The translations under genes and the position numbers were made by a program. From assembly GCA_030431975.1 (NCBI GenBank), contig JAUIHP010000001.1, forward strand, positions 186,001 to 250,000: a stretch of 64,000 nt of DNA, in the 5' to 3' direction. The notes below the pieces were generated by a model. It was not told the DNA's origin, ran no database searches, and saw only the letters and a list, made by a program, of their open reading frames with translations. Source of the DNA: a bacterium (lineage in GTDB: Bacteria; Eisenbacteria; RBG-16-71-46; CAIMUX01). Every line of letters starts with the position of its first letter. Within the stretch, counting starts at the first letter, position 1. Below are positions 14,303 through 24,917 of this stretch, piece after piece.

Positions 14303-14386
14303 TCGCGTCGTTGGGGGTGTCCTTCGGGACTGAGAGAGACCCTTAAGAACCTGATCTGGGTGATGCCAGCGTAGGGAAACGACCGA
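14303..14386 (+). promoter_or_regulatory. TPP riboswitch (THI element)
   Basis: The conserved thiamine-pyrophosphate aptamer is clear. GGGGTG comes first, then CTGAGAGA at 14330-14337, then ACCTGATCTGGGTGATGCC and the GTAGGGAA closing segment. The P1 stem can form between GTCGTT (14307-14312) and AACGAC (14378-14383). It stands about 100 bp before thiO and is therefore expected to lower expression of thiO-thiS-thiG-tenI/smr when TPP is plentiful. The GGAGG site of thiO lies at 14471, within reach of a translational switch. Confidence 0.95.
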
Positions 14387-14482
14387 AGCCCGATCCGCAC
14401 TTCCGCTGCGGCCCCGCTTCGCGTTTCTCATCCAATGGCCGGCCCGACCTCCCACGACCCACGCCTGCTTGGAGGTACGACC

Positions 14483-15637
14483 GTGAACGACATTCCGAGA
14501 AATGCCCCCATGCCCGACGTCCTCATCATCGGCGGCGGTGTTCTCGGTCTGGCTGCCTCCTGCGAGTTGTTGTCACACGGCTACACGGTCACGTTGGTCG
14601 ATCGCGGCTCCGTCGAACGCGGCTCTCGAGACTGCGCCACCCGGGCGGCGGCTGGAATGCTCTCCCCCTATGCCGAACTGACCGAGCTCGACTCCATTCC
14701 GAACTGGGTCGATCTCATGGCGCTGGCACTTCGCTCCTATCCCGACTTCGTCCGGAACGTCATCAACACCTCGGGCCTTCACGTCGAGTGCCGTTTCCCG
14801 GGCTCACTTGTGACGAATGCCTCCGGTGGCAAGGGCTTCGACTGGGAACGCAGCGCCGAGCAGATGCGTGACCTCGGCGCCGATGTCGAGGTTCTCGATG
14901 CCGATCAGATCTACGACCGCGAACCCGGCCTGGAAGCCGAGTCCGGCCTCTTCTTTTCTGACGAAGGCTACGTCGACCCGCGGGCGCTTCACGATGCCCT
15001 TCGGCTCTCCTTTGTTGCATTGGGCGGAACGTGGATCGAAAGCGAGGTCTTTGACCTCATCATGGACGGAGACCAGGTGGTCGGCGTCCGATCTGGACGC
15101 GGGGACTTGCAGGCCGGCTCGGTACTCAACACTTCCGGACACGCCTGCGGCCGGTTCCTGTTACCCGAAGACAAGTTTTCCCTTCGCCCCACCCCGGTGG
15201 CCGGCGAAGTCATCCGGCTTCGTCCGCAGAAGAAAGACGAAGGGGTGCAGTGTGTCGTGCAGGTTCCAGGGCGGGCCTACATCGTACCGCGCGACGACGG
15301 CACCGTTCTCATCGGCGCCACCGTCTACGAAGGCAGTGACGAAGCCCGGGTTCGCGCGTCGGGAGTGGCGTCTCTCATCGAACGTGCCGCACTTTATCTT
15401 CCGGCCTCTGGTGAGTGGGAGTGGGTGGAAACCTGGTGCGGTGTCCGACCCCGGGCCGGCAGCGGCGAGCCCAAGGCCTGGGCCGACTCGCGTCCCGGTC
15501 TGTTTCACGGGATGGGACTGTATCGAAACGGCATCCTCCTCGCGCCGGTCGTGGGAGCGCAACTGGCTCGGCTGGTCGCGGAGTATCTGGGACAAGCCTC
15601 GCGTCGTTCTGTCGGAGGCCCCGGTATCGATCGCTAA
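14483..15637 (+). CDS. thiO: Glycine oxidase ThiO
   Basis: The 384-residue FAD enzyme oxidises glycine to the imine that ThiG uses for thiazole assembly. The dinucleotide-binding VLIIGGGVLGLAASCEL motif is at the N-terminus, followed by RAAAGMLSPYAEL and the C-terminal GMGLYRNGILLAPVVG typical of ThiO/DadA-type oxidases. GTG 14483 has GGAGG seven bases upstream. A GTG/ATG start at 14435 is in frame but lacks such a site and lies nearer the riboswitch. The next gene is thiS, 96 bp downstream. Confidence 0.93.
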   Translation: MNDIPRNAPMPDVLIIGGGVLGLAASCELLSHGYTVTLVDRGSVERGSRDCATRAAAGMLSPYAELTELDSIPNWVDLMALALRSYPDFVRNVINTSGLHVECRFPGSLVTNASGGKGFDWERSAEQMRDLGADVEVLDADQIYDREPGLEAESGLFFSDEGYVDPRALHDALRLSFVALGGTWIESEVFDLIMDGDQVVGVRSGRGDLQAGSVLNTSGHACGRFLLPEDKFSLRPTPVAGEVIRLRPQKKDEGVQCVVQVPGRAYIVPRDDGTVLIGATVYEGSDEARVRASGVASLIERAALYLPASGEWEWVETWCGVRPRAGSGEPKAWADSRPGLFHGMGLYRNGILLAPVVGAQLARLVAEYLGQASRRSVGGPGIDR

Positions 15638-15733: not shown

Positions 15734-15967
15734 ATGAGTGAGACCACTGAAAAGAAGCCTCTGACTCTCCAGGTGAACGGAGAAACCCGGAGTTTCGAGG
15801 ATGTGACGACGATGAGCGACCTGCTCCAACGTCTGGGCGTCGAAACGGGAAGCGGCGGGCTCGCCGTCGCCCTGAATCTACATGTTGTCCCCAAGAGAGA
15901 GTTCGCGGACACGATACTGAGCGACGGAGACCGGGTCGAACTCGTCCAGGCGGTTCAGGGCGGATAA
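15734..15967 (+). CDS. thiS: Sulfur-carrier protein ThiS
   Basis: The 77-residue beta-grasp protein carries sulfur as a C-terminal thiocarboxylate for thiazole synthesis. It has the family ending VQAVQGG, and the internal N-G-E segment (QVNGETRSF) starts the fold after a short N-terminal extension. The ATG is preceded by GGATAGGA. It lies between thiO and thiG, with a 24-bp gap before thiG. No ThiF adenylating enzyme is in the window. Confidence 0.93.
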   Translation: MSETTEKKPLTLQVNGETRSFEDVTTMSDLLQRLGVETGSGGLAVALNLHVVPKREFADTILSDGDRVELVQAVQGG

Positions 15968-15991: not shown

Positions 15992-16798
15992 ATGTCGAAG
16001 AAAGTGCGTGGACACCGCGGGCCTGAACTGCGAATCGGCGATCGCACGTATCGAAGCCGGCTCATGGTCGGCACCGGCAAGTACAAGGACTTCAAGGAAA
16101 CGCAGGAAGCGTTGGACGAAAGTGGGGCCGAGATCGTCACCGTCGCCATCCGGCGGATCAATCTCGACAGCAAGGCCGAGGACAGTCTTCTCCGCTACAT
16201 CGACCTCGACCGCTATACGCTGCTGCCGAACACCGCCGGTTGTTTCTCCGTGGACGAAGCGGTTCTCACCGCTCGTCTGGCCCGCGAGGCTCTGGGAACC
16301 GACCTCGTCAAACTCGAAGTCCTCGGCGATCAGCAAACGCTCTTCCCGGACACACGTGGGTTGCTGGAAGCGGCAAAGATTCTCGTCGACGAAGGCTTCT
16401 TCGTCCTTCCCTACTGCATGGACGACCCCATCGTCTGCAAGCAGTTGGTCGAGATCGGATGTCCCGCGGTCATGCCCTTGGGCGCACCGATCGGCTCCGG
16501 TCTCGGCATTCGCAATCCCTACAACATCCGGATCATCCTCGAGACGATCGACGTTCCGGTCATCGTCGACGCTGGCGTCGGAACCGCTTCCGATGTAGCG
16601 GTTGCGATGGAACTCGGATGCGACGGTGTCCTCCTGAACACGGCCATCGCGGGCGCGGACGATCCGATCGCCATGGCCCGCGCGATGAAACTGGGCTGTG
16701 AAGCAGGACGACTGGCGTACGAAGCCGGCCGTATTCCGCGAAAGCTCTATGCGAACGCATCGAGCCCGCTCGAAGGAATGGTCGAAGTCCCGAGCTGA
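15992..16798 (+). CDS. thiG: Thiazole synthase ThiG
   Basis: The 268-residue TIM-barrel enzyme joins DXP, dehydroglycine and ThiS-bound sulfur into the thiazole phosphate. [12 protein letters not shown] near the N-terminus, the Schiff-base Lys107 in [10 protein letters not shown], and [13 protein letters not shown], the phosphate-binding part of the barrel, are all intact. The C-terminus [10 protein letters not shown] is full length. It is the third gene of the riboswitch-controlled thiazole cluster. Confidence 0.96.
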
Positions 16799-16849: not shown

Positions 16850-17950
16850 ATGAAGATTCCCCGCTTCATGCTTATCACTCCTCCCGGTGTCGGACGCCGA
16901 ACAAAACCCATTCGGGAGCTGTTGCTTCACCCGGATCTTGCCTCCGTGCCGCCCGCATCGTGGATGTTGCAGTGGCGGGATCCGGACAGCCGGTCTGACA
17001 AAGAGTCGGCATCGCAGGCAGGCGCCGGCGTCTCCGTAGTCCCAGCGTCGCCTCCACATGCGGGCATCCCCGCTTCTGCCGGATCGCCGGCCAACATGGA
17101 CACCTGCGCTCTCCTGGAGTTGCGTTCCGAACTCGAAACTCGTGGCTGGAACGAGGGTCGCGGCCCTATCTGGCAGATCAACGCCGGTTTGCCCGGAGCC
17201 GTCGACACCGCTCAACGACTGAAGGCCGGACTCCACCTTCCCGAAAGCGCGCCGTTACCGATCGGCATCGACAAGGTCCACGGTCCGGTCGGCCGGTCGA
17301 CTCATAGCCTGGACGCCGCACGGGCAGCCGAACAGGAAGGCGTCGACTACCTCATCTTCGGCCCGATCTTCGCCACGCCTTCCAAGGCGGCCTACGGAAC
17401 GCCGCAGGGGCTGAAACAACTGCAGAAGGTCACCGCAGCCGTGAGCGTTCCTGTCCTCGCGGTCGGCGGAATCGACCTGAAGCGTGTCGCGAAATGCGTG
17501 GACGCCGGGGCCCACGGCGTTGCCGTGATTCGCGAAGTTTGGGACAGTCAGGAACCGAGTGAGATGCTTCTGCGACTCGTCGCGGCGGCCGACCCCGGGG
17601 CATTCTCCGCTCGCGGAACCAGCAGCGCCGCCGACGGAGACGCCGGATCGGGAGACGCTGTTCCCTCCGCGGATCCTGACGCGGTCGAACTCCCGATCGA
17701 GGACTTCATCGACCTGCACTACTTCCGGCCGAAAGAGATCCTGGATGTCGTCGATGCGTATCTCGAGGCCGCGCAGGAGGCGGGATTCACCGAAGTCCGG
17801 CTCATCCACGGTAAGGGAAAAGGGTTCCAGCGGGACCGGATCCAGACGATGCTCGACTCTCACGCCCGCGTCGATTCGTTCCGCGACGCGCCCGCCCATC
17901 GCGGACACTGGGGCGCGACAATCGTGACCTTGGTCAAGAGTTCTCGGTAA
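16850..17950 (+). CDS. TenI/ThiE-like domain fused to an Smr domain
   Basis: This 366-residue protein has two domains. Residues 1-240 form a ThiE/TenI barrel: LQWRDPD at the QxR site, VHGPVGRSTHS, YLIFGPIFATPSK and VLAVGGIDLKR. The Asn-Asp pair that binds magnesium in ThiE reads Ile-Asn-Ala here, so the domain looks more like the thiazole tautomerase TenI. That would suit its place after thiG. An Ala/Gly/Pro insertion occupies about residues 52-80, and an Ala/Asp/Ser linker lies near 240-280. Residues 283-366 form an Smr domain with IDLHYFRPKE and the HGKGKG loop. Smr domains act on nucleic acids, so the pairing is unexpected. ATG follows GGAGGGGTGACGG. Confidence 0.85.
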   Translation: MKIPRFMLITPPGVGRRTKPIRELLLHPDLASVPPASWMLQWRDPDSRSDKESASQAGAGVSVVPASPPHAGIPASAGSPANMDTCALLELRSELETRGWNEGRGPIWQINAGLPGAVDTAQRLKAGLHLPESAPLPIGIDKVHGPVGRSTHSLDAARAAEQEGVDYLIFGPIFATPSKAAYGTPQGLKQLQKVTAAVSVPVLAVGGIDLKRVAKCVDAGAHGVAVIREVWDSQEPSEMLLRLVAAADPGAFSARGTSSAADGDAGSGDAVPSADPDAVELPIEDFIDLHYFRPKEILDVVDAYLEAAQEAGFTEVRLIHGKGKGFQRDRIQTMLDSHARVDSFRDAPAHRGHWGATIVTLVKSSR

Positions 17951-18092: not shown

Positions 18093-20945
18093 ATGAAGTC
18101 AATGGACCAGACGCTCGACGAGATTCTTCCTCTCGTCTCCAAACCCAGCCGCTATCTCGGCAACGAGTTCCACGTCACGCGAAAGCAACCGGAACCCGGA
18201 ATGGTGCAGTGGTGCCTGGTCCTACCCGAGGTCTACGAAATCGGGATGAGTCACTGGGGTCTCAAAATCCTCTATGACGTTCTCAACCAGCGGAAGGATT
18301 CCCTGGCCGAGCGCGGCTACTCCCCGTGGTTCGACATGGAAGCGCAGCTTCGTCGCACGGGCCTGCCGCTTTATGCACTGGAGTCGAAACGTCCGCTCGG
18401 CGAATTCGACTTCGTCGGGTTTTCGCTGCAGTACGAACTGACCTACACGAACATCCTGCAGTGTCTGGATCTGTCGGGAATCCCGCTGCGTTCGCGAGAT
18501 CGTCGGGATGAGGATCCCCTCATCATCGCGGGTGGCCCCGTCGTCAGCAATCCGGAGCCGGTCTCCGACTTCATCGACATGTTCCTGATCGGTGACGGCG
18601 AGGAGATGATCCACCGGATCACGGATCTCTACAAAGAGACGCGCGACCTTTCCCGTTGGGAGAAGCTGCGCCGGTTCGCATCGCTTCCCGGGATCTACGT
18701 TCCGCAGATGTACGAGCAGAAGTACGACGACGAGGGGCGCCTCGTCGGAACCTTCCCTCTCTACGAAGACGTACCGAAACGAGTGCAGCGGCAGTTCATC
18801 ATCGATCTCGAGAACGCGCCGGTTCCGGAGAAGCCGATCGTCCCCGTTCAGGACATCGTCCAGAACCGGCTCTCCGTCGAAGTTCTTCGCGGATGCACCC
18901 AAGGCTGCCGCTTCTGTCAGGCGGGTTACCTCTATCGCCCGATCCGGGAACGCAGTGTCGAGAAGGTCCTGGACATCGCCGACAAGGCCATCCGCAACTC
19001 CGGTTGGGATGAAGTCGGACTGACGTCGCTTTCGACCGCCGACTACACCCAGCTCTCTCCTTTGGCCGATGTTCTCAACGAGCGTTTCGCCAGTGACCGG
19101 GTCGGCATGGCCCTGCCTTCGTTGCGCGCCGACTCGTTCGGCGTGGAAGTCGCGGACAAGGTCAAGGAAACGAAGAAGACCGGCTTTACCTTCGCACCCG
19201 AGGTCGGCAGCGAACGGCTGCGCCTTGCCGTCAACAAGCTGATTCGCGATCAGGAGTTCTTCGACGCAGCCGAGATCGCCTTCTCCCGTGGTTGGAGGCT
19301 GATCAAGATGTACTTCATGATCGGCCTCCCTACCGAAGAGTGGGAGGATGTCGACGGCATCATCAACTTCGTCAACAACATCAAGGCCATCGGGCAGAAG
19401 CACAGCCGACGAAACTCGGTCAACGCATCGATCGGCTCGTTCGTGCCGAAGAGCCACACTCCGTTTCAGTGGGATGCCTTCGAACCCGTCGGACTTCTGG
19501 AAGAGAAGATTCGTTACATCCGCCGCAAGTGCAACACGACGGCCAGCCGCATCAAGTGGCACGATGTGAAGACTTCACACCTGGAAGCAATCTTCTCGAA
19601 GGGCGATCGTCGTCTGGGCGCATCGATCGAGTGGGCCTACCGCCAGGGCGCCCGCTTCGACGGTTGGACCGAGCACTTCGACTACGACATGTGGATGCGC
19701 GCCTTCGAAGAGACAGGTGTCGACGTCGCCTACCACACCGGTCGCCGCGAGTACACGGATGCGCTCCCTTGGGACCACATCGACATTCGGGTCAGCAAGA
19801 AGTGGCTGCAACGCGAGCGCGTCAAGACGGACGAGGCCATTCTCGAAATCGGCAAGTCTCTCGTCACCGATTGTCGCCACGGGGACTGCACGGCCTGCGG
19901 AATTCCCGGGCTGCCGTTCGACACGCAGCTCACTCCAGCAATTGACGATGAGAAGCTCGAGCAGCTCAAGGCCAAGGCGCGGGCTTCCGCTCCGCGGGCC
20001 GAAGATCACGGAATGGTCTGGCCGATTCGGATCCGTTTCGAGAAGACCGGCCATGCCCGATTCATTTCTCATCTGGAGATGGGAACCGTTCTCGGGCGCG
20101 CCTTCCGCATGGCCCGCATCCCGGTCGCACATTCGCAAGGGCACAAGCCGCGACCCAAGCTCGGCTTTGGTCCCTCTCTGTCTGTTGGGATCGAAACGCG
20201 GGACGAGTACTTCGACGTCGATCTACTTCGCCCGTGGACGCCGGTCTTCATCGACGAGTTGAATGCGGTCCTTCCGGAAGGCATCCGCGTCCTTGGGGGG
20301 AAACCGATCCGACTGATGCCCGGCACCAAGCGACAGAGCCTCGCTTCCCTTGCCCGTCTCGCCCGCTACGAAGTGGATCTCAGCCGCTTGGCTCCAGAGC
20401 AGACCTCGCGGATGGAGTCCGTCGTTCGTGAGTTCTACGACACGGAGTCCTGCGTCGTGGAGCGTGCGCACTGGAATCCCCAGTCGTCACGGGAGGCCAC
20501 GGATTGGGAGAGCCCGTTTGATCCGCTGGCAGCCGCTCCCGCACGCTCGGACCGCGAACCGAAGCCAGGCTCCAACGGTCAAGCCTCTGATGCCGTCAAC
20601 TCGGGATCCGCGCCGGTCAATGGGCACGAGAAGGACAACGGCCGTGGTTCGCATGGTCGTGGCAGCTCGAAGAAGCCGAAGACGGTCGACCTTCACCTGG
20701 CTTTGAGAAACATGACCATCGAGACCGGAAAGCTTCAGCTGGAGCTGTACCTGGCTCGCGACGACGGTCAGGTCTGCAATCCCAAGGTCATCCTCGAGCG
20801 ACTGTTTCGGATGAGTCCGGAAGAGCAGGCGAAGGTTCGAATCTGTCGGACTGCGGTCCTTCGGGAGAATGGGCGCGCGATCGAGGCCGAAGATGCGCTG
20901 GCTGAGGATCGGGTGGAGATCCCGGAGCCCGTGCGGTTGAGATAG
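18093..20945 (+). CDS. B12-binding radical SAM protein fused to DUF2344 domain
   Basis: The 950-residue protein matches the large radical SAM family with an N-terminal cobalamin-binding-like domain (about 30-230). Its radical SAM core has the cluster cysteines Cys268, Cys272 and Cys275 (RGCTQGCRFCQAG). A C-terminal DUF2344 domain begins near residue 645 (MVWPIRIRFEKTGHARFISHLE). A Cys-rich stretch, DCRHGDCTACGIPG, joins the two parts. A Ser/Gly/Asn-rich insertion lies near residues 810-865. Such proteins often sit by ribosomal L21/L27 or RNase G genes, but those are absent here. Their substrate is not settled; RNA modification has been suspected. ATG 18093 follows GAGGTGAG. Confidence 0.88.
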   Translation: MKSMDQTLDEILPLVSKPSRYLGNEFHVTRKQPEPGMVQWCLVLPEVYEIGMSHWGLKILYDVLNQRKDSLAERGYSPWFDMEAQLRRTGLPLYALESKRPLGEFDFVGFSLQYELTYTNILQCLDLSGIPLRSRDRRDEDPLIIAGGPVVSNPEPVSDFIDMFLIGDGEEMIHRITDLYKETRDLSRWEKLRRFASLPGIYVPQMYEQKYDDEGRLVGTFPLYEDVPKRVQRQFIIDLENAPVPEKPIVPVQDIVQNRLSVEVLRGCTQGCRFCQAGYLYRPIRERSVEKVLDIADKAIRNSGWDEVGLTSLSTADYTQLSPLADVLNERFASDRVGMALPSLRADSFGVEVADKVKETKKTGFTFAPEVGSERLRLAVNKLIRDQEFFDAAEIAFSRGWRLIKMYFMIGLPTEEWEDVDGIINFVNNIKAIGQKHSRRNSVNASIGSFVPKSHTPFQWDAFEPVGLLEEKIRYIRRKCNTTASRIKWHDVKTSHLEAIFSKGDRRLGASIEWAYRQGARFDGWTEHFDYDMWMRAFEETGVDVAYHTGRREYTDALPWDHIDIRVSKKWLQRERVKTDEAILEIGKSLVTDCRHGDCTACGIPGLPFDTQLTPAIDDEKLEQLKAKARASAPRAEDHGMVWPIRIRFEKTGHARFISHLEMGTVLGRAFRMARIPVAHSQGHKPRPKLGFGPSLSVGIETRDEYFDVDLLRPWTPVFIDELNAVLPEGIRVLGGKPIRLMPGTKRQSLASLARLARYEVDLSRLAPEQTSRMESVVREFYDTESCVVERAHWNPQSSREATDWESPFDPLAAAPARSDREPKPGSNGQASDAVNSGSAPVNGHEKDNGRGSHGRGSSKKPKTVDLHLALRNMTIETGKLQLELYLARDDGQVCNPKVILERLFRMSPEEQAKVRICRTAVLRENGRAIEAEDALAEDRVEIPEPVRLR

Positions 20946-20960
20946 CGGAGTACGCGTCCG

Positions 20961-22190
20961 TCAGGCGACCGGCTTCCTCGGATCCCGGAACGTGCTTCGC
21001 AACGCCAGAAACGGCAGACAGACGACCAGAAAGACCACCACATAGAGAACGCCCGCCGACTGCAACGCCACGTCGTGCCCCCAGCGGTCGATGGTCCAAC
21101 CGAAAAGTGGGCCGAGCAAAGCGAACCCGGCCCGCACGCCGAGCGTCGAGACGGAGTTGGCCGTCGCCCGATAATCCGTCGGCACGCGTGTATTCAACGC
21201 GTCCTTGAGCACGACTTGAGTCAGTCCGCGTGCGACTTGAAAGCACAGGCCAAAGAAAATCCCGACGACGGCGCCACCCCAGGCCATTCCGAAGTATCCG
21301 ATCACGGGCAGCAACCCGATGATGACGACCACGGGAGCCGACCCGATTCGATCCTCCACGGAGTGAGCGATCCGACCGACCAACGCCACCGTCAGGTTGT
21401 ATCCCGCCCAAAGCCAACCGAACCAGGCCAGGGGTACTCCCTGCGACTGCCACAGGTCCTGGAACGCCCACACCGCCAGCAACGTCGCGAGCCCATAGAA
21501 GACGAGGTTGAGCAGAATGGCCCGGACAAGTTGCGATCGCCGAAAGAGCAGGCTCCAGACTTCTCCCAACTGATCCAGGTGACTCTTCCCCTGGTTTTGT
21601 CTTTGACGCGGCGGCTCCTCCAAAGACAGCGCAAGGAAGAACGGCACCCACGCGGTGATCGCGTTGACGGCCGCAGGTAGTTGCAACGAAACCAGCACGA
21701 GGAGCCCTCCGGCGATGGAAGCTGTCGTCTCTCCGAGCTGCGCATAAAACAACCTGCGACCTAGGGAGGAGATCCCACTTCGCTCCCCTCTTTCTTCCGG
21801 AAGTTCCCGCCGCAACGCTTCGTCGGTGTCGTAGATGAGAGCAACGTCCGCACCGGAATAGAGGCTCGCGCCGATCGCGGCAAGTGTCTCGAAAATGACG
21901 AAGTCAGCGAACGAGTCGGCAACGGCAAACCAGGTAAACGCTGCTCCCGCGCTGAGGCCGGAAAGCATGAGCGTCGACTTACGACCGATGTGATCGGAAA
22001 CGTAACCGGACGGTACCTCGAACAACACGATCAGCGTGGCAAAGACGGTCTGGAGGATATAGACCTGCCGCATGTCGAGCCCGTGCCAACGGAAGTAGGG
22101 CACGGCCACCGGCATGATGACGAGGAACATCCAGAAGAAGTTGATCCACTGGACCTTCCGGAAGTTGGATTGCAGTCGTTCACGATCCAT
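20961..22190 (-). CDS. Major facilitator superfamily transporter
   Basis: The 409-residue membrane protein has about twelve hydrophobic segments. Motif A between TM2 and TM3 reads VPSGYVSDHIGRKSTLMLSG. A YDTDEALRRELPEERGERSG cytoplasmic loop and a DALNTRVPTDYRATANS loop are typical of small drug/metabolite permeases of this superfamily. The substrate cannot be told from sequence alone. The gene converges on the radical SAM gene with only 15 bp between stops, and is divergent from the CHRD gene. Confidence 0.88.
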   Translation of the reverse strand: MDRERLQSNFRKVQWINFFWMFLVIMPVAVPYFRWHGLDMRQVYILQTVFATLIVLFEVPSGYVSDHIGRKSTLMLSGLSAGAAFTWFAVADSFADFVIFETLAAIGASLYSGADVALIYDTDEALRRELPEERGERSGISSLGRRLFYAQLGETTASIAGGLLVLVSLQLPAAVNAITAWVPFFLALSLEEPPRQRQNQGKSHLDQLGEVWSLLFRRSQLVRAILLNLVFYGLATLLAVWAFQDLWQSQGVPLAWFGWLWAGYNLTVALVGRIAHSVEDRIGSAPVVVIIGLLPVIGYFGMAWGGAVVGIFFGLCFQVARGLTQVVLKDALNTRVPTDYRATANSVSTLGVRAGFALLGPLFGWTIDRWGHDVALQSAGVLYVVVFLVVCLPFLALRSTFRDPRKPVA

Positions 22191-22367
22191 GGGCTTCCGC
22201 GAAGTCTAACCCGGAACCCCAATTCCTGCCGGTATCGGCTCAAAGGACCGGCCACGGACGAATCTGAACGCCTGAGCATCGTCGAAACACGTATCAGCAT
22301 TGAACGGCCGGCGACTTCTGAGCGAGGGGACAATTACTCGCAACTCGTTCTCCAGGAGGAACCACAT

Positions 22368-24917
22368 ATGCGTTGGGGGTTCGTCGTACTTGCGTGCGCG
22401 CTCATCATCTCTTCCCTGCCGACCACCGCGGCCGCTCAGGCTCACCTCAAGGCCCATCTCGGCGGCGTCCAGGAAAACCCGCCGGTGGCCGGTGACGGAA
22501 GCGGCACGGCTTCCTTTACTCTGATTGACAACACGATCTACTACACGCTGACCGTCGAGGGACTTTCCGGACCGGTGACGGCGGCTCACCTTCATCGAGG
22601 GCAGCGAGGCGTCAACGGCCCGGTCGTTTTCGACCTGGGTGGTGACTTCAACTTCCACGCTCCGAACACCGCGACCGGCGAGATCGCCGGGCTGACCTCA
22701 GCCGATGTCGCCGATCTCCTCAGCGGTTCGCTCTACCTCAACGTTCACACTTCGGCGAACCCCGGCGGTGAAATCCGGGGGCAGGTCGATCTCGCCTCAG
22801 GAGCGCACCTCGTCGCCGACTTGGACGGGAATCAGGAGAATCCTCCGACCGGGGCTGCGGGGACAGGAACCGGCGCCTTCATCCTTACGGAGGAAGCCCT
22901 CTTCTACGATGTCACGGTGACCGGCCTTACCGGCGGGATCACGGCCTCTCATTTTCACTCCGGCGCGCTCGGCCTGAATGGAGGAGTCGTCCGCGATATC
23001 GGTGGCTCTTTCGCAGGAAACCGCGCCGTCGGCGTTTGGAATCGCGGATCGAGCGCCCCTGACCTGACTCCAGCTCTGGTTCGGGACCTGCTGACCGGCG
23101 AACTCTATCTCAACATCCACACTGCGGCGAATCCGGGCGGCGAAATCCGCGGCCAGCTGCAGCTCGCATCCGGCTTCGGCTTCCGGGCCAACTTCGACGG
23201 CGACCAGCGGGTTCCGCCACTCGATACAGACGCAGAAGGAACCGCGGCGTTGACCCTGACGCCGAACGGGCTCACCTATGACATCACGGTCGAAGGACTG
23301 ACCGGGCCGATCATCGACGCTCACTTTCACCTTGCCGCGGCCGGAAGCAACGGTCCCGTGGTGCGGGGAATCATGGCTGACTTCGTCGGCAACACCGCAC
23401 GGGGAGTCTGGTCGCCGACCGATTCGCAGGCGCTGACGCCACAGATGATCTGCGACCTGCTGGAGGGCAACCTCTACATTAACGTTCACACGACGGCCAA
23501 CCCGGGCGGCGAGATCCGTGGCCAGGTTCTGCTGAACTCGGCAACGTCGTTCACGGCGCGTTTTTCGAGCGAGCAGGAGAATCCTCCGACCGGTGAAGCC
23601 GGGACCGGAACGGGCACCTTCCGTTTGACCGGAGCCGGACTCGAATACGACATCAGCATCGATGGACTGACCGGCGCCATCACAGCCGCGCACATCCATG
23701 ACGGTACGGTCGGCGTCAACGGCGGCGTCGTCTTCAACCTCGGCGGCTCCTTCACCGGCAATCACGCCCACGGCACATGGGCCGCTCCGAGCGGTGCTCA
23801 GATCAAGGAACTCCTCGCCGGCAACTACTACGTCAACATCCACACCGGCGCGCACCCGGGTGGCGAGTTGCGGGGACAGGTTCTTCTCAGCTCAGGATGC
23901 GGCGTTGTCTTCCCGCTCAACTCCGAACAGGAAGAGCCGCCGGTCATGACTCCGGCCGACGGCACCGGCGCGGCCACCCTGACGCGGGACGGTCTTGTCG
24001 TCAACTTCACGGTCGACAACCTGTCGTCCGCGTTCCTGGCCACCCACATCCACGGCGCTCCGACGGGAACGAACGGTGGAGTCCTTTACAACATGACGGG
24101 CGCATACGCGGGCGGTCACGCCGAGGACGTGTTTGCGCCGGCCGACGGACTCACCCCGGCAGCCTTCGACGATGTCCTGCTCGGAAACACCTACGTCAAC
24201 GTCCACACGGGATCTTTCCCATCGGGCGAACTTCGCGGACAGCTCATCTTCTCCGAAGGGTTCTTCGCGGACGCCCTGCTCAATGGAGGCGCGGAAGTTC
24301 CACCCTTCGGCTCTTTGGCGTTGGGAACCGGTGCATTCCAGCTGAGCGACGGGTTCATGGCCTACGACGTTTCCTACGACGGCCTGGAAGGTCCGTTCCT
24401 CGCGTCCCACTTCCATCAGGCGCCGGTCGGATCAAATGGACCGGTCCGGCATGACATCTCCGGTAGTTTCGTAGCCGGTACCGGCCGCGGAATCTGGAGG
24501 GAGGATGACGCCCAACCGTTGACCACGGATGACTTCTGCTCCTTCATCCGTCGGGACATGTACGTCAACATCCACTCGAACGCGTCCCCTGCGGGAGAGA
24601 TTCGGGGAGACCTCGACGAGATGACGCCTGCCAGCACGCCCGACGCGCCTGCTGTTCCGCAGTTCGTCGTGAAGGCGACTCCCAATCCGGCGCTCGACCG
24701 GACAACGGTGTCCTTCCAGCTCGAGCGCGACGGAGAGGTCTCGGCTTCACTGTTTGCGCCCGACGGTTCCCTAGTTCGTCCCGTCTTGCAGGAAGCCAGG
24801 ACGGCTGGAAGGCTGGACATCACGGTCGACCTGGGCGGCCTTCCGGTCGGGATGTACTTCCTGCGGGTTGAGCAGGAAGGACGAAGCGGAGTGGCCAAGC
24901 TGCTGCGCATCGAGTAG
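22368..24917 (+). CDS. Secreted protein with six CHRD domains and a FlgD/Por-type C-terminus
   Basis: The 849-residue protein starts at ATG 22368 behind AGGAGGAACC, with a clean signal peptide (cleavage near TTAAAQA). Six tandem CHRD domains of about 115-120 residues follow. Each has a GxQExPP-like start, a T-x-x-G-L-x-G core, an A-x-H-x-H motif and N-(V/I)-H-T-x-x-x-P-x-G-E-(I/L)-R-G at the end. The last 85 residues (TPNPALDRTTVSFQL to the end) form a FlgD/Por-type sorting-like domain. CHRD domains occur in extracellular and biomineral-associated proteins of unclear role. A 126-codon upstream extension of the frame has no signal peptide and antisense-overlaps the MFS gene, so I reject it. 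Confidence 0.9.
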   Translation: MRWGFVVLACALIISSLPTTAAAQAHLKAHLGGVQENPPVAGDGSGTASFTLIDNTIYYTLTVEGLSGPVTAAHLHRGQRGVNGPVVFDLGGDFNFHAPNTATGEIAGLTSADVADLLSGSLYLNVHTSANPGGEIRGQVDLASGAHLVADLDGNQENPPTGAAGTGTGAFILTEEALFYDVTVTGLTGGITASHFHSGALGLNGGVVRDIGGSFAGNRAVGVWNRGSSAPDLTPALVRDLLTGELYLNIHTAANPGGEIRGQLQLASGFGFRANFDGDQRVPPLDTDAEGTAALTLTPNGLTYDITVEGLTGPIIDAHFHLAAAGSNGPVVRGIMADFVGNTARGVWSPTDSQALTPQMICDLLEGNLYINVHTTANPGGEIRGQVLLNSATSFTARFSSEQENPPTGEAGTGTGTFRLTGAGLEYDISIDGLTGAITAAHIHDGTVGVNGGVVFNLGGSFTGNHAHGTWAAPSGAQIKELLAGNYYVNIHTGAHPGGELRGQVLLSSGCGVVFPLNSEQEEPPVMTPADGTGAATLTRDGLVVNFTVDNLSSAFLATHIHGAPTGTNGGVLYNMTGAYAGGHAEDVFAPADGLTPAAFDDVLLGNTYVNVHTGSFPSGELRGQLIFSEGFFADALLNGGAEVPPFGSLALGTGAFQLSDGFMAYDVSYDGLEGPFLASHFHQAPVGSNGPVRHDISGSFVAGTGRGIWREDDAQPLTTDDFCSFIRRDMYVNIHSNASPAGEIRGDLDEMTPASTPDAPAVPQFVVKATPNPALDRTTVSFQLERDGEVSASLFAPDGSLVRPVLQEARTAGRLDITVDLGGLPVGMYFLRVEQEGRSGVAKLLRIE

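Follow-up and report, generated by a model that had tools for sequence, protein, structure and literature searches.

A TenI-like barrel and an Smr domain in one reading frame, probably a lineage-specific fusion of two resident genes

Does a single reading frame that holds both a thiamine-synthesis barrel and a nucleic-acid-acting Smr domain point to a new functional link that ties nucleic acids to thiamine supply, or is it an ordinary fusion of two genes? An earlier note on the 64-kb stretch of bacterial DNA analyzed here (the window) offered both readings. The evidence favors the fusion, in which two neighbors lost the stop that separated them, and lends the functional link no support. We assign a probability of about 0.75 to a young, lineage-specific fusion between tenI and a small stand-alone smr, both of them resident and vertically inherited, whose products act independently.

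The uninterrupted frame (16850-17950, + strand, as for the window features given below up to position 20945) has 366 codons and encodes a 366-residue protein in which a disordered linker joins a TenI/ThiE-type barrel to an Smr domain, as the earlier note had described; both domains exceed their Pfam gathering scores. The TenI-like (βα)8 barrel (16850-17605, residues 1-252) was delimited from Pfam family PF02581, a predicted model, and an alignment. The Ala/Gly/Ser/Asp-rich linker (17606-17689) is predicted to be disordered and lacks conservation. The Smr domain (17708-17932, residues 287-361) matches PF01713 with an E-value of 4.7e-21 and 75.2 bits against a cut-off of 25.7. It contains a DLH motif (17711-17719, residues 288-290) and the HGKG loop (17807-17818, residues 320-323), which is intact, as previously noted; both motifs are invariant among 10 aligned homologues. 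There is no in-frame stop in the linker, a TGA at 17677 lies in a different reading frame, and codon-position GC is alike on either side of the linker. The Smr part of the predicted model has modest confidence because the alignment supplied no Smr homologues.

The TMP-TENI profile matches residues 117-230 (PF02581; E-value 4.4e-27, 95 bits against a cut-off of 27), but the profile is matched only from its position 64 onward. In its N-terminal half, the barrel is divergent and carries a low-complexity, Ala/Ser/Pro-rich insert of about 35 residues (16991-17089, about residues 48-80). All eight barrel strands are present in the predicted model, in which the insert has low confidence and linker residues 256-286 have pLDDT values below 50. 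Judged from this model, insert residues 48-80 and linker residues 256-286 are probably disordered. The top PDB matches to the model are 3qh2 and 1yad, TenI of Bacillus subtilis, which a sequence search likewise ranks first. The protein misses the cut-off of the NCBIfam TenI equivalog NF005819 (82.1 versus 251 bits) and is therefore classed here as TenI-like and not as an established TenI; it also misses the ThiE cut-off of TIGR00693 (79.1 versus 145.1 bits).

The Mg-binding Asp positions are missing from the barrel, as the earlier note had reported: in the alignment with the genome's own ThiE, INAGLP...HLPESAP stands in place of VNDRVD...HLGADD. That canonical ThiE, with the motifs VNDRVD and HLGADD, is encoded on contig C3 of the same genome. 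Since a separate canonical ThiE is present and the barrel matches TenI, absence of the Asp, a TenI hallmark, is expected of a TenI encoded beside thiO, thiS, and thiG. As in TenI, the barrel keeps the His of GRSxHS and its C-terminal half. His152 of the GRSTHS motif (17303-17305), a candidate acid/base, aligns with the TenI His, which we take to be a candidate catalytic residue of TenI. The B. subtilis TenI row of this alignment was compared with the PDB entry over its C-terminal half, where the two agree. The TenI part is assumed to act as a tautomerase that would isomerize the ThiG product. This activity is only assumed because the N-terminal half has diverged and the window barrel has INAGLPGAVD and QWRDP where two order-mates (G002 and G003) retain NDRVD and QWREK.

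The TPP riboswitch that the earlier note had placed upstream is present at 14303-14394 (RF00059; cmscan 65.9 bits, gathering score 54.3) and is the sole Rfam match in the window. It lies ahead of thiO, about 2.5 kb upstream of the fused gene, and also heads the thi clusters of G002 and G003. The glycine oxidase-like gene thiO (14435-15637; PF01266, E-value 1.5e-55), whose start codon is uncertain, scores 219.6 bits against TIGR02352, under the cut-off of 250.8. The sulfur carrier gene thiS (15734-15967), with a C-terminal GG in its product, is 48% identical to the thiS at the same place in G002, and the thiazole synthase gene thiG (15992-16798; PF05690, E-value 5.3e-113) is 82% identical to its G002 counterpart. 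The genes follow in the order thiO-thiS-thiG-tenI, separated by 97, 25, and 52 nt; the fused gene is the last thi gene. A pattern scan found no terminator-like sites in the stretch that begins with thiS and ends with the fused gene, so control of the thi cluster and the fused gene by one riboswitch is plausible.

The 3' neighbor of the fused gene encodes a radical SAM protein (18093-20945; TIGR03960/TIGR03936). A B12-binding radical SAM gene of this type follows tenI also in G003 and G005 (loci L045 and L048), which forms a conserved neighborhood and suggests that smr is the newcomer between tenI and the radical SAM gene. The C-terminus of the radical SAM protein of the window has a low-complexity stretch that resembles the TenI insert. 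Farther downstream, positions 21990-24917 encode a long secreted-looking protein with repeat units that, by eye only, are like CHRD domain repeats.

Relatives were compared in samples of 11 genomes from the order, 47 from the phylum, and 290 in all, the phylum genomes included. A DLH-type Smr occurs in 10 of the 11 order genomes, one of them the window genome, and has its own frame in the other nine. All order-mates with both a stand-alone smr and a TenI/ThiE match carry the two genes apart. At the cut-offs used, G010 lacks a TenI/ThiE match and G006 a stand-alone Smr; in G001, G004, G008, and G009 the gene with the TenI/ThiE match is ThiE-like, and G007 lacks such a match. The direct comparisons of tenI are therefore those with G002, G003, and G005.

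The nearest relative compared, G002, belongs to the same family and a different genus. Its cluster has the same order as the window, riboswitch-thiO-thiS-thiG-tenI. The tenI product ends in LHDAFVDSL followed by the stop, within a few residues of the position at which the linker of the window protein starts, and smr is a separate 100-codon gene 3.7 kb beyond tenI on the same contig and strand. Between them lie a glycosyltransferase-like gene (other strand, assigned by eye) and then a gene for a 737-residue protein. Separate genes with a stop at the same place, which the earlier note had named as its refuting outcome, are largely what G002 has. The argH-like neighbor of G002 smr is on contig C50 in the window genome, and hence the surroundings of smr differ there. 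Identity to the G002 proteins is 73% for the Smr half and 58% for the TenI core; these are the best matches among those listed for the 290 genomes, which points to inheritance within the family. Both halves were probably inherited in this way and joined in the lineage of the window genome. The DNA of the linker has no similarity above that of shuffled sequences to the 3' flank of tenI or the 5' flank of smr in G002, and the alignment with homologues likewise contains no conserved linker sequence; conservation of the linker, raised by the earlier note as a check, was thus not found.

The earlier note had also proposed a search for the same fusion in related genomes. None was found in the order, in the 47 phylum genomes, or among the matches listed for the 290 genomes, and the fusion is absent from the nine matches in the genome-contig search. 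No further case of tenI and smr in close adjacency occurs in the 47 phylum genomes or among the matches listed for the 290. Elsewhere, smr was not seen beside thi genes; the one exception is G002, where the distance is 3.7 kb and two unrelated genes intervene. Among the papers searched, none pairs "Smr domain" with "TenI" or with "RsmG". The fusion is known from one assembly of one genome; the TenI-Smr architecture was not found in any other genome searched, and its component families are already known. Two candidate parallels were rejected. In G046, from another family of the class, Smr lies in a 431-residue open frame, the upstream part of which has no TenI match and reads as GC-rich non-coding DNA; the contig may be contamination. 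A match of the G001 Smr extending back to query residue 246, which might pass for a shared linker, passes through a TAA that precedes the start of the G001 gene and is therefore chance composition.

These results bear on the possibility that the two domains are coupled, with the barrel sensing or anchoring thiazole phosphate or the thiamine state and thereby governing how Smr cuts nucleic acids. Divergence from its relatives has cost the barrel NDRVD and the REK lysine and given it a large insert, and Smr now stands behind a TPP riboswitch, both of which would suit such coupling. However, the arrangement does not recur among the matches listed for the 290 genomes, the linker is predicted to be disordered and is not conserved, the barrel is still TenI-like in its GRSxHS His and C-terminal half, and smr elsewhere has no association with thi genes. 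We consider the coupling very improbable. A specific form of it, in which the diverged barrel would bind a thiazole or thiamine intermediate and tune Smr while the riboswitch sets the level, is barely credible; if true, ribosome rescue or nucleic-acid cutting would be tied to thiamine status.

Could the frame instead be an artefact, in which a base error, a frameshift, or a misjoin merged two neighboring or distant genes? The sequence comes from a single assembly, in G002 the two genes share a strand and are separated by 3.7 kb, and the TGA at 17677 could end another frame of the linker. Nevertheless, a stop has to be lost, and the sole in-frame start codon shortly ahead of Smr, the ATG at 17564, lies within tenI, so correcting one simple error does not give back two normal genes. 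The assembly has 59 contigs, 97% completeness, and 0.5% contamination, and an artefact is unlikely. The same ATG, 9 nt after an AGGA, is an internal codon that could serve as an additional or even the main start for the Smr part, giving two proteins. It sits in the C-terminal helix of TenI, though, and its product would include about 45 residues that do not resemble the N-termini of stand-alone Smr proteins; one match resembling a Shine-Dalgarno site is weak evidence, and we regard this arrangement as quite improbable.

We hypothesize that the lineage-specific fusion arose when a rearrangement brought smr next to tenI. Once the stop of tenI and the start of smr had been lost, a single frame would have resulted, and the intervening DNA would have become a flexible tether. 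The TenI part may turn the ThiG product into carboxythiazole phosphate for the separate ThiE, and the Smr part may work alone at the end of the tether. The two domains probably keep separate jobs, and production of the Smr domain under TPP-riboswitch control would be a side effect.

The window Smr has the DxH and HGxG motifs of the nuclease type, a group that includes the mRNA-cutting SmrB (PMC10897456). DLH marks the nuclease-active type; DLR types, such as MutS2 of B. subtilis, rescue ribosomes without cutting, and DLR is tied to the loss of cleavage (PMC10897456). Stand-alone Smr domains like YdaL of Escherichia coli also nick DNA (PMC3200294). The fused Smr is the only DLH-type Smr of its genome; the MutS2 encoded on contig C13 carries DLR, and tmRNA is present. 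Because of this combination, our best guess is that the Smr part would be an SmrB-like endonuclease acting at collided ribosomes. MutS2, of DLR type where examined, coexists with a stand-alone DLH-type Smr in G003, G004, G007, G008, and other order-mates; a review describes the coexistence of MutS2 and stand-alone Smr as rare (PMC3200294). In other families of the order, smr lies directly 3' of an OsmC-like gene (loci among L047, L051, L053, L054, and L056), and in one family (f3; same set of loci) it is a few kb from genes for the RNA ligase RtcB and archease.

If real, the fusion places a nuclease-type Smr domain under the control of a TPP riboswitch. Its value is mainly that of a clear case in which one lineage has joined two of its resident genes, and it cautions against reading function from one fused frame.

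Compared with known systems, the barrel is closest to B. subtilis TenI (1yad/3qh2), which is its best match in sequence and fold, lacks the Mg-binding Asp of ThiE, has GRSxHS, and is encoded with thiO, thiS, and thiG. The window protein differs from it in the insert of about 35 residues after the second strand, the divergent N-terminal half, and the C-terminal Smr domain, and it is far under the NCBIfam TenI cut-off (82 versus 251 bits). The Smr part resembles the small stand-alone Smr family (family 3, DLHxFxP type), which is widespread, occurs in many genomes, and is marked by an (E)LPIxD lead-in and an LDLHxFxP motif. They share the domain, DLH, HGKG, and the lead-in, ELPIED in the window protein, and the G002 gene is 73% identical; however, the usual products have about 90-120 residues, whereas the window Smr is tethered to a barrel by a linker. 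E. coli SmrB shares the nuclease-type DxH and HGxG motifs and has an N-terminal ribosome-binding extension where the window protein has the TenI barrel; by eye, no helix like the uS2-binding N-terminal hook of SmrB was recognized in the linker, which is predicted to be disordered. The same small DLH-type Smr family is fused to an enzyme also in three Desulfobacterales/Deltaproteobacteria contigs (L034:5995-6963, L035:5959-6936, and L036:23-1174), the frames of which are 62-72% identical over the whole length. There, in three genomes, Smr is N-terminal and its partner is RsmG (GidB), a 16S rRNA methyltransferase, whereas in the window it is C-terminal on a TenI barrel. From its sequences, the Smr-RsmG fusion looks conserved and would fit a role at the ribosome, and it is more suggestive than TenI-Smr.
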